This document shows, in pieces, positions 8,265 to 48,001 of a stretch of 64,000 bases of DNA (the first letter of the stretch is position 1; each line of letters begins with the position of its first letter). The notes under the pieces are model-generated. The model was not told the origin of the DNA and did not search any database. It saw nothing but the letters and a program-made list of their open reading frames with translations. The DNA is from Martinezella tropici (GTDB lineage Bacteria > Pseudomonadota > Alphaproteobacteria > Rhizobiales > Rhizobiaceae). The position numbers and the translations under genes are program-made. Location of the stretch: positions 62,001-126,000 of the forward strand of contig JUHI01000012.1 in assembly GCA_000799755.1 (NCBI GenBank), in the 5' to 3' direction.

Positions 8265-8801
8265 TCAGAATCTCAGCCGCGCCATCGTCAGCGCATCCAC
8301 ATATTCGCCATTGCGAAAACCGAAGGCGCGCAAACATCCTTCGGTTTCGAACCCGAATTTCTCGTAGAGCCCGATCGCCGGCGCATTGTCGGCATAGACG
8401 GTCAGCTCCAGCCGCTTGATCGCTAGCCAGTTGTCGGCGGTATCGACAAGAGCGGCCATAAGGGCGGAGCCGATGCCACAGCCGGTGAAATCGTCGTGCA
8501 CGCCCATGCCGATGTTGCCGCTGTGAATCCGCCGACCGGCAAGGCGCTGCATGCCGGCATTGCCGACGATCTGCCCGTCAAGTACGGCAACGAGCCTGGT
8601 AGCGCTGGGGTCATGCTTATCCAGCCAGCGCTGCGTTTCCTCTATGCTCTGAAAGGGCAGCCGCAGCGTGCCGGCGCGGAAGCCGGGCAGGTTGGCGATC
8701 GCGGCAATCCCTTCGGCATCCGAGGGACGCGTTGCTCGAATCTCGATCGGGCCGACACGTTTGCGTCGTCGCTCGTCTGGTTCTTGCTCTTCGGAATTCA
8801 T
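8265..8801 (-). CDS. GNAT-family N-acetyltransferase
   Basis: The 178-residue product has the GNAT fold. IEIRATRPSDAEGIAAIANLP opens the domain near residue 20. The acetyl-CoA loop is in DDFTGCGIGSALM, and YADNAPAIGLYEKFGFETEG is the typical last motif. The closing FGFRNGEYVDALTMARL resembles YhhY/RimL-like members. The substrate cannot be told from sequence. I chose the ATG at 8801, because AAAGGAGAG stands just upstream on the coding strand; a longer frame exists but has no ribosome site. A nine-base-pair hairpin at 8843-8868 lies in the presumed leader. Confidence 0.85.
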   Translation of the reverse strand: MNSEEQEPDERRRKRVGPIEIRATRPSDAEGIAAIANLPGFRAGTLRLPFQSIEETQRWLDKHDPSATRLVAVLDGQIVGNAGMQRLAGRRIHSGNIGMGVHDDFTGCGIGSALMAALVDTADNWLAIKRLELTVYADNAPAIGLYEKFGFETEGCLRAFGFRNGEYVDALTMARLRF

Positions 8802-8842
8802 GGGCTCTCCTTTGATGTGATGGGAGGAGAGCAAGGAGGTTT

Positions 8843-8868
8843 CAACCCTGCTCGCCTCGGCAGGGTTG
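8843..8868. repeat. Hairpin in the leader of the GNAT gene
   Basis: CAACCCTGC at 8843-8851 and GCAGGGTTG at 8860-8868 form a perfect nine-base inverted repeat with an eight-base loop. It lies 42 bases upstream of the minus-strand GNAT start. No T-tract follows on either strand, so it may be an operator or an RNA leader element rather than a terminator. Confidence 0.5.
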
Positions 8869-9075
8869 AGATGGATCGCGGTCAGCTCAGCGCAACACAG
8901 CTTCCACTCGCCCTGCAAGGGGAGAGATGGTGTGAAGGTGCATCACGATGGTGCGGTTTGCGATCATGGGTGGATGATCCGCTGTGATACGAAGCTTGTC
9001 AATCGCTCGTTGCATAAATCCTTTGATCGGGCGCCCGTCCTCAAGGGCGCGAGATTGTCTTGTGTCACATACTGC

Positions 9076-9105
9076 TTGACATGAAACCATTTGGTTGCCT
9101 ATAAA
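9076..9105 (+). promoter_or_regulatory. Promoter of the ArsR/SRPBCC operon
   Basis: TTGACA at 9076-9081 and TATAAA at 9100-9105 with an 18-base spacer form a near-consensus sigma-70 promoter. Almost the whole spacer and the first base of the -10 element lie inside the left arm of the palindrome at 9084-9129, so a protein bound there would block RNA polymerase. Confidence 0.75.
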
Positions 9106-9129
9106 ATGGAAAAGGCAACCAAATGGTTT
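9084..9129. promoter_or_regulatory. Large inverted-repeat operator in front of the ArsR-type gene
   Basis: AAACCATTTGGTTGCCT at 9084-9100 and its exact reverse complement at 9113-9129 are separated by 12 bases. Each arm also holds an imperfect inner palindrome (AACC, four bases, GGTT), with centres about 32 bases apart, close to three helical turns. It covers the promoter spacer and -10 and ends seven bases before the GTG start. The likely role is autoregulation by the encoded ArsR protein. Confidence 0.7.
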
Positions 9130-9136
9130 CGTATCT

Positions 9137-9460
9137 GTGAATGATGACCTAGTCTTCAAGGCTTTGGCGGATGCCAGCCGGCGGCAGTTGCTCGACAGGC
9201 TTTACGAGCGGAACGGGCAGACCCTGAGCGCACTTTGCGAGGATCTGGATATGAGCCGGCAGGCGGTCGCCAAGCATCTCGCCATTCTGGAGGAGGCCAA
9301 TCTGGTCTCCTCGGAGAAGCATGGGCGCGAGAAACTGCATTTCATCAATGCGGTCCCGATCAACGGCATTGCCGAACGCTGGATCAACAAATTCGAACGC
9401 CGGCATCTGAGTGCGCTTTCGGCCTTGAAGAAGGCGCTGGAAGACGAAGGCGGCGATTGA
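9137..9460 (+). CDS. ArsR-family winged-helix transcriptional regulator
   Basis: This 107-residue protein has an ArsR-type winged helix over about residues 5-85. FKALADASRRQLLDRLYE is helix 1, the recognition region is LDMSRQAVAKHLAILEEANLV, and the wing is SSEKHGREKLHF. There is no CxC metal site, so it belongs to the group paired with SRPBCC proteins rather than the metal sensors. The GTG at 9137 is the only plausible start after the promoter; no ATG lies in frame and no clear Shine-Dalgarno is present. It is followed after 34 bases by the SRPBCC gene, a very common pairing. It probably binds the palindrome that overlaps its promoter. Confidence 0.88.
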   Translation: MNDDLVFKALADASRRQLLDRLYERNGQTLSALCEDLDMSRQAVAKHLAILEEANLVSSEKHGREKLHFINAVPINGIAERWINKFERRHLSALSALKKALEDEGGD

Positions 9461-9494
9461 GCCGGATAACCAAGGCCAAACAGGGAGAAAAGAC

Positions 9495-9938
9495 ATGGCT
9501 GGCAGCAAATTCGTCTACGTCACCTTCATCCGCACGACGCCGGAAAAGCTCTGGGCGGCGCTCATCACGCCCGAGTTCATCAAGCAATATTGGTTCGACA
9601 TGGTCCACGAGACCGACTGGAAAGTCGGTTCTCCCTGGAAGATGCTCTTTCCGGATGGCCGGGTCGCCGATACGGGGGAGATTGCCGAGTTCGACCCGCC
9701 GCGGCGGCTTGCCATCAAATGGCGCAATGAATGGCGCCCGGAGCTGAAGGCCGAAGGCTGGTCATGCTGCGTGATGGAGCTGGAGCCGGCGGATGGCGTC
9801 GTAAAGCTGACCGTTACTCACGCGATCGAGGTGGAAAACTCCAAGCTCATCGAGGCAGTTTCTGGTGGCTGGCCGAAAATATTGTCCAACCTCAAATCGT
9901 TGCTGGAAACCGGAACGGTGGCAATCAGCCAGAAATGA
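9495..9938 (+). CDS. SRPBCC (AHSA1-like) protein
   Basis: The 147-residue product begins with the AHSA1/SRPBCC pattern: FVYVTFIRTTPEKLWAALI, then FIKQYWFDM, then GSPWKMLFPDGRVADTGEI and WPKILSNLKSLLETG. The fold has a deep cavity for small hydrophobic ligands. In operons with ArsR-type regulators its physiological role is mostly unknown. GGGAG lies about nine bases before the ATG. It is the second gene of the operon, so it should be induced when the ArsR repressor releases the large palindrome. Confidence 0.85.
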   Translation: MAGSKFVYVTFIRTTPEKLWAALITPEFIKQYWFDMVHETDWKVGSPWKMLFPDGRVADTGEIAEFDPPRRLAIKWRNEWRPELKAEGWSCCVMELEPADGVVKLTVTHAIEVENSKLIEAVSGGWPKILSNLKSLLETGTVAISQK

Positions 9939-47200: not shown

Positions 47201-48001
47201 GAAATCAAGCTCGGCGAGACGCATGTGCGCGGCCTCAATCTGTCGATCCTGCCGCCGCTGCTTTCTGCGACAGATCAGATCCAGGGGGATATCACCGTCG
47301 CCAAGGTGTTGCCGATCATGCAAACGCTGCTCAACAACGGCGAAGCGGTCCTGCCGGCAACGAGTATCCCCTTCAACATTTCTACGGGCGTGGCGCGGGC
47401 TACCAATATTACCGCTGGCAACGATCTGGCGAAGCTTTCCGGCAATGCCGAAATCAGCCTGCCGGACGAGCGTATGCGCGGATCTCTTGGCATCGATTTC
47501 AACGCCGGCACCGAAGCGCAGAGCGGGGCCGAGCCGGCGTTACGCCTTGATTTTGCCGGATCGCTGGCAGCGCCTGGCCGGACGATGGACGTCACGGACG
47601 TCACCAGTTTCCTGTCGGTTCGCGCATTCGAGCGCGAGCGGCGGCGTGTCGAGCGCCTGCAGGCCAATGTGCTTGAAAAGCAACGGCTGCGGCGCGAGGT
47701 GGCGCTCTATAAATATGTGGCGGGCGTGCGCGAGGCGCAGCGTCAGCGCGATGCCGCCATCGAGCAGCAACGGCGTGCGGAAGAGCAACGCCTGCGCGAT
47801 CTAGCTCGGCAGGCGGCCGAACAAAAGCAGGCAGAAGAAGACGCACGCGCCAAGCAGGCAGCAGAGGAGGCGGCCAAAGCCAAGGCGGCGGCGGACGCAC
47901 GCGCCAAGGTGGAGGCGCAACGTCCGCCGCCGCCCAACAACCCGGCCCCGCAAACGACGTCGCCTTTGAACTTCAATGAACTGCCGGGAGTCGCCCAATA
48001 A
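44264..48001 (+). CDS. AsmA-family protein with charged C-terminal tail
   Basis: AsmA-like proteins are long, membrane-anchored bridge proteins that help carry phospholipid across the periplasm to the outer membrane. The 1245-residue product starts with one membrane helix (LVFLGGLLVVVLFVALLAPLFI) followed by the AsmA N-terminal motif WTDFRKNFEDQASRIIGKKVTVHGTVDARLLPFPSVTLHDVRVG, and has AsmA-like repeats to about residue 1100. The last 140 residues are unusual: a Gln/Arg/Glu/Ala coiled coil, then a proline-rich end. The start is a TTG at 44264 with GGAG ten bases upstream. A hairpin terminator begins at the base after the stop. Confidence 0.9.
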   Translation: MLGRVLVFLGGLLVVVLFVALLAPLFIDWTDFRKNFEDQASRIIGKKVTVHGTVDARLLPFPSVTLHDVRVGQEADGTPLVQIAEFSMDAELAPFLSGEALIFDMRVSQPKVRLRLLKDGTLDWMRGSQPEIPAKSVVLESVHVEDGDILFIDEQTGRTRHVTGLNAQMSARSLAGPWRIEGDAALDNEHGNFTISSSQPDDNGVLRVRTRLMPDRHPLNVDLDGELKLVNSKPDYMGSFTAGVNDKQARDAADQKAQPRIKGRFELTNDRIRIPEYRLEVGADDDPYVVTGEATLDTGSKPEFLLTADGQQIDVNRLGNNKGTNGKTNRNPAISARQRLNSLIAIAAEIPVPQVPGKATFRLPAIVAGDTTIRDVQLDLEPAGTGWKIDHAVGTLPGRTQAEARGNLMLQGEPNFIGNLVVASNQPSGLASWLVGSVDPAIRQLRQAGFSADVSLRHEEQRFDNLEIAIGPAILKGRLDRQSGTDKAPPKLAVDLNGDTLDLDALRALTGLFTGQDTGESLFDHRISAHLQAGKFMAFGVPADNVDTSFSVADGALTLDKLSVRNVAGAEITATGRADGSPSDYKGSGEITFKAADPGPFFEMLRQHLPHHPVMDRLVRNAAWYGNTALRGAVTLGGDQDNALTVTLAGVSNGSRVNFDYRMSDLSAFTGKGTTTLEGTLENSVTSILFGQAGLDPLPVEADANGRLTLKVSANGTDPADAALTFATDKTSFTANGKVDVRPATFLNGTIALSLESADIDPYFVMNGIGIPQMGTGLPVKLQANAALDPDRIVFSGMKGLFADNNMSGTLTIDRKAPGLKASGELAVDKMDFDWLAEGIYGPMRDPKTGALNRDKLGLPAFSGMDIGVKLSAKQVWPGIFGPISNFTANAAYKGEELRLNDLAGGWNGGTLNGSLMLANSDGTGLMQTKLNLVNGDLAAVAWQRDGAPLATGRFGLAMNAEASGKSIADLAANASGSGEIKLGETHVRGLNLSILPPLLSATDQIQGDITVAKVLPIMQTLLNNGEAVLPATSIPFNISTGVARATNITAGNDLAKLSGNAEISLPDERMRGSLGIDFNAGTEAQSGAEPALRLDFAGSLAAPGRTMDVTDVTSFLSVRAFERERRRVERLQANVLEKQRLRREVALYKYVAGVREAQRQRDAAIEQQRRAEEQRLRDLARQAAEQKQAEEDARAKQAAEEAAKAKAAADARAKVEAQRPPPPNNPAPQTTSPLNFNELPGVAQ

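Follow-up and report, generated by a model that had tools for sequence, protein, structure and literature searches.

Within the window (the whole 64,000-nucleotide stretch of DNA that was analysed), a promoter and two plus-strand genes encode an ArsR-family regulator and an SRPBCC/AHSA1 partner. A divergent GNAT acetyltransferase gene lies upstream of this operon (8265-8801, minus strand), and 9002-8974 on the same strand is promoter-like. The features of the operon are listed below, with conservation given for the 54 double-operator loci defined further on.

9076-9081, plus strand: -35 hexamer TTGACA, read directly; exact in 54 of 54 loci
9083-9098, no strand assigned: putative operator O1, GAAACC-ATTT-GGTTGC, in the -35/-10 spacer at about -29 to -14; 11 of 12 core matches
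9100-9105, plus strand: -10 hexamer TATAAA, read directly; 4-5 of 6 matches to TATAAT across the 54 loci
about 9112, plus strand: predicted transcription start, seven bases past the -10 hexamer
9115-9130, no strand assigned: putative operator O2, GCAACC-AAAT-GGTTTC, in the 5' leader at about +4 to +19; 11 of 12 core matches
9137-9460, plus strand: ArsR-family regulator of 107 amino acids (PF12840, PF01022, NF033788), with a GTG start and no Shine-Dalgarno sequence
9257-9295, plus strand: recognition helix RQAVAKHLAILEE, codons 41-53, with A43 and K46; helical in the AlphaFold2 model (mean pLDDT 74.6, pTM 0.56)
9495-9938, plus strand: SRPBCC/AHSA1 (COG3832-type) partner of 147 amino acids; PF08327 at 84.7 bits (cut-off 22.1), E = 8e-24

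The regulator belongs to the ArsR/SmtB family by a winged-helix domain that scores above the curated cut-offs of three profiles (PF01022, 32.7 bits against 22; PF12840, 39.8 against 27; NF033788, 62 against 55), and the AlphaFold2 model has the winged-helix layout. Its GTG at 9137 aligns with the ATG or GTG starts of its relatives. By reading, the protein carries a single cysteine, C34; metal-binding motifs are reported to be absent from the COG3832-linked ArsR subfamily (PMC2701414). With an AHSA1/SRPBCC gene directly downstream of arsR, the operon has the layout of the ArsR-COG3832 (Aha1 family) two-gene module described in 2009; it differs in its operator pair, operators not being described for the module in the accessible part of that report (PMC2701414).

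A perfect inverted repeat runs across the promoter, comprising GAAACCATTTGGTTGCCT at 9083-9100 and its exact reverse complement at 9113-9130, separated by a 12-base loop. The perfect palindrome that the earlier note placed at this ArsR/SRPBCC promoter is thus real, as is its 12-base loop, but the arms measure 18 nt rather than the 17 given there. It is the sole perfect inverted repeat with arms of at least 17 nt (loops of 3-40) within the window, arms of at least 14 nt were found in none of 20 first-order Markov sequences of window length, and the repeat is not expected by chance. Another repeat near 47897 sits in a GC-rich repetitive stretch and was dropped. The two promoter hexamers, separated by an 18-bp spacer, flank the first 16 bases of the left arm, and the predicted transcription start is the last base of the loop, adjoining the right arm. 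This promoter is absent from the output of the promoter scan, whose rule demands a T at the sixth -10 position, and the call therefore rests on direct reading and conservation.

Each arm is itself an imperfect dyad, with centres at 9090.5 and 9122.5, 32 bp or about 3.05 turns apart at 10.5 bp per turn. Both follow an 8-N4-8 plan around the core GCAACC-N4-GGTTGC, so that two dimer-sized dyads stand at one promoter, and the repeat is best read as two ordinary putative ArsR operators rather than one long palindrome. Because each operator is near-palindromic, the pair reads as one large inverted repeat, and it is the presence of two operators that accounts for its size; the description of the site as much larger than usual ArsR operators is not supported, since each arm has the 8-N4-8 size footprinted for Rv2034 (PMC3338718). 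The outer O1 half-site GAAACC is found only at the window's locus among the 54, relatives having GCAACC or a close form, and this C-to-A change happens to match the GGTTTC of O2, which lengthened the perfect arms. Across the 8.05-Mb genome (74 contigs), GGCAACCAAATGGTT occurs with 0 or 1 mismatch only in the two arms, and with two mismatches at 14 further sites. The core GCAACC-N4-GGTTGC with up to 2 mismatches tells little at this scale (516 sites, against 247 for a reversed control); two of the 31 one-mismatch sites listed are the arms, and the one examined among the other 29, on contig C10, falls inside a 287-codon open frame.

Conservation was assessed in loci gathered by ArsR protein searches, which gave 47 named loci and, counting paralogues, hits in 75 of 100 relatives at a threshold of 1e-10; at 1e-30, 63 of 148 same-genus genomes had a match, and 19 further stretches were added to the set. 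The closest named matches of the window's ArsR, at 94% identity, are from Rhizobium lusitanum, Rhizobium sp. P40RR-XXII, R. multihospitium and R. tropici. The pattern loci L001-L010, and L057 with no match at 1e-6, were left out of the comparison. In the series L011-L124, 113 of 114 loci matched, and these collapsed to 85 distinct loci when identical sequences from -80 to +250 were merged. A wider search of the phylum, with matches in 43 of 398 genomes, added 28 loci, giving 113 examined loci in all. A locus was called double when each of two sites had at least 9 of 12 core matches, the score being a criterion and not a result; two loci of the 113-locus set (L025 and L035) count as double at this 9-match threshold. 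A downstream SRPBCC match is present at 80 of the 85 distinct loci, those lacking one being L036, L050 (whose contig runs out 331 bases after the ArsR start), L054, L055 and L086, and at 26 of the 28 added loci.

Both sites are kept in 54 of the 85 distinct loci, which bears out the expectation that related ArsR-SRPBCC promoters would retain them and that two dimer-sized sites, here predicted from their dyads, lie across the promoter. A further 9 distinct loci have one GCAACC-N4-GGTTGC site, 11 have one operator of a second type, GCAGGT-N4-ACCTGC, 6 have two of this second type, with an extra copy 25 bp upstream, and 5 have neither type. The GCAGGT-type doubles are L084, L085, L119, L120, L121 and L123, with L145 carrying its extra upstream copy at 29 bp, and these upstream copies suggest more than one origin of operator pairs within the family. 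A locus from another family of the same class (L142) has a GCAACC-type pair 30 bp apart, lacking a TTGACA before the first site.

The distance between O1 and O2 in the 54 loci is 33 bp in 24, 34 bp in 17 and 32 bp in 10, with 27, 35 and 36 bp once each. The idea that the two sites lie on the same face about three turns apart agrees with a spacing of 32-36 bp in 53 loci, but this 4-bp range amounts to some 137 degrees of twist, and at a single locus the distance is 27 bp, a variation that counts against the two-operator model itself. The length of the perfect arms is far less stable: the longest perfect repeat reaches at least 16 nt in 17 of the 54 loci and is 9 nt or less in 15. The conserved feature, as judged from these alignments, is the two predicted operators and not the long perfect arms; the notion of one oversized operator is abandoned.

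The recognition helix of the local ArsR varies with the operator type. Across the 113 loci, the helix is RQ...KH in 77 of 77 GCAACC-type loci (55 double and 22 single) and RQ...QH in 19 of 19 readable GCAGGT-type loci, one more (L124) having an unreadable frame. This correspondence links the sites to the local ArsR, though largely by way of a single evolutionary switch, the GCAGGT group being one clade and the match therefore close to a single contrast. Counting against the model, seven of the 113 loci have one of these helices and neither operator type, comprising five with RQ...QH (L038, L137, L143, L146 and L147) and two with RQ...KH (L149 and L150). ArsR proteins that are less closely related go with different dyads, such as the GTNAC-type sites that accompany RFGVMKH helices (L151-L155). 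These five loci have frames of 249-250 amino acids and an SRPBCC match each, and upstream of the start lies what looks like another operator pair, formed by two adjacent GTNAC-N6-GTNAC-like dyads at a distance of 16 bp.

The predicted leader of the window's operon is about 25 nt long (start at about 9112, GTG at 9137), consists mostly of O2 and lacks a Shine-Dalgarno sequence. The sequence agrees with the missing ribosome site pointed out previously, and in 53 of the 54 double-operator loci at most 2 consecutive bases of AAGGAGGT are found between -18 and -4. Translation close to leaderless had also been proposed here, a description that by prediction suits the single-operator relatives instead: the predicted transcript of the window's operon does not begin at the start codon, whereas each of the 22 single-GCAACC loci has its first usable in-frame start codon between -4 and +4 nt relative to the predicted start of transcription. 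This estimate uses whichever in-frame ATG, GTG or TTG comes first from 30 nt past the -35 hexamer onward; it cannot go below -6 and leans to short leaders. Mapped leaderless starts in Sinorhizobium meliloti all begin with AUG (PMC3616915).

In the 22 single-operator loci the site lies between the -35 and -10 hexamers. The operator stands 27-30 nt from the start codon in 8 of the first 9 of these loci (45 nt in L046), and O2 stands 22-26 nt from it in the 54 double-operator loci, so O2 is close to the place of the single operator. A TAT at the -10 offset is found for O1 in 53 of the 54 loci and for O2 in 41, and the position of a -35 hexamer before O2 holds only 2-4 of 6 matches in the 54 loci. 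These sequences fit an origin of O2 as a tandem copy of the promoter-operator unit; the TAT of O2 could equally be the outer part of the operator, or O2 could be an inverted copy. In a first tree, excluding L124 for its unreadable frame, one change accounts for the double-operator group, weakly supported at 42/74 (41% of bootstrap trees). In a second tree, with the double-operator loci thinned to 22 rows and L054, L055, L086, L087, L124 and L151-L155 omitted, it needs two changes, and L142 joins on a long branch. Two single-operator loci (L036 and L037) group with the double-operator clade in both trees.

The best explanation, to which we give a probability of roughly 0.85, is that the repeat consists of two separate operators of the ArsR protein encoded at 9137-9460, providing two-site autorepression of the arsR-SRPBCC operon. 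An ArsR dimer bound to O1, within the -35/-10 spacer, would keep RNA polymerase off the promoter, a second dimer bound to O2 would impose a further block, at initiation or during early elongation, and both operators together would autorepress the operon until a signal releases ArsR, this signal being probably sensed with or through the SRPBCC protein. A working role is less sure for O2 than for O1. Within the Rhizobium lineage, a second operator copy may have been added to a promoter that had one operator and a leaderless mRNA, the downstream copy becoming the leader. A broader proposal is more tentative: operator copying might have converted a leaderless autorepressor promoter into a two-tier switch, in which O2 serves as a Shine-Dalgarno-free leader and promoter occlusion is joined by a block just after the start, with pairs of differing spacings gained more than once in the family and a change from A43/K46 to S43/Q46 recoding the half-site from AACC to AGGT.

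The reading that only O1 works, with O2 a decaying promoter-operator copy kept by recent descent or leader constraints, is unlikely, though several observations suit it. A decayed copy would be expected to lack a -35 hexamer and to retain a -10-like TAT at the offset seen for O1, as in 41 of the 54 loci, and single-operator relatives manage with one site. The outer half-site of O2 is moreover off consensus in all 54 loci (GGTTCC in 40, GGTTTC in 14), and O2 may therefore be weak or partly vestigial. Against this, the inner half-site GCAACC and the outer GGTT of O2 are nearly invariant while ArsR identity falls to about 70%, and the TAT has the alternative explanation given above. Still less probable is that the likeness of the arms stems from template switching or gene conversion between inverted copies; this would explain the perfect arms here and in L012, where both arms have matching unusual changes. 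O1 and the reverse complement of O2 agree at 14.07/16 within loci and at 13.81 when shuffled over all loci (p 0.0002), but the excess fades as shuffling is confined to closer clades, with p at 0.011 and 0.013 for 85% and 88% identity and at 0.26 and 0.24 for 90% and 93%, so that shared descent may explain the likeness. Such conversion would in any case concern the origin of the sites and not their function.

The operon is very unlikely to be a toxin-antitoxin module with the usual paired antitoxin operators. ArsR-COG3832 was named as a candidate pair in 2009, but the same authors held antibiotic resistance to be its most plausible role (PMC2701414), and a COG3832 protein of Stenotrophomonas was non-toxic in E. 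coli and in its own host (PMC7650669). The least credible alternative is that the long inverted repeat is itself functional, as a DNA cruciform or an RNA hairpin, the dyads within the arms being secondary. Folded as single-stranded DNA, 9078-9136 forms the whole 18-bp stem (-20.4 kcal/mol, z -9.3), but the pairing of the arms is not kept among the relatives, and since the -10 hexamer sits between the arms, the predicted mRNA holds the right arm only, 9112-9200 folding no better than shuffled sequences (z 0.30). Rfam gave no match within 8800-9500, and a hairpin or cruciform function was rejected.

Both the ArsR-COG3832 operon and paired operators at ArsR/SmtB promoters are already known, and the proposed two-operator autorepression is a modest variant of an ordinary self-regulating switch, kept in related Rhizobium, which does not overturn the established view of ArsR regulation. 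A precedent is Rv2034-Rv2035, in which Rv2034 represses itself, its footprint covering an 8-N4-8 palindrome between -30 and +3 of its promoter, and the next gene encodes a polyketide_cyc2 (SRPBCC-type) protein (PMC3338718). The two systems share an 8-N4-8 operator over the promoter and an SRPBCC-type neighbour; Rv2034 has one palindrome, with half-site CCGTAAGT, and demonstrated autorepression, whereas two GCAACC-type operators are predicted here (PMC3338718). In the promoters of SmtB/ArsR metal sensors, ArsR-type dimers similarly bind one or two inverted repeats that overlap the transcription start or lie close to it, but these repeats are of the 12-2-12 form, as opposed to the 8-N4-8 sites and SRPBCC partner described here (PMC8790569). 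A partial literature search on ArsR-SRPBCC/COG3832 pairs and on the 12-mer AACCAAATGGTT returned no report of this operator pair. The sites provide a specific, testable predicted operator for a common, little-studied ArsR-COG3832 pair, together with a natural series that sets one-operator, predicted leaderless promoters beside two-operator ones with a leader, and in which helix and operator change in step.

Two ArsR paralogues in the same genome (L126 and L127, on contigs C22 and C2; 45-46% identity) have a different dyad, ATGTTAT...ATAACAT, ending at the start codon, and no SRPBCC match was found near either in the stretches examined. At three other loci ArsR and AHSA1/SRPBCC are fused in one chain (L052:1192-1953, L056:1186-1953 and L087:1492-2268), suggesting that the two domains act together; the fusions come from two Lachnospiraceae metagenome-assembled genomes and one same-order genome, and L052 and L056 have a single GCAACC-type operator.
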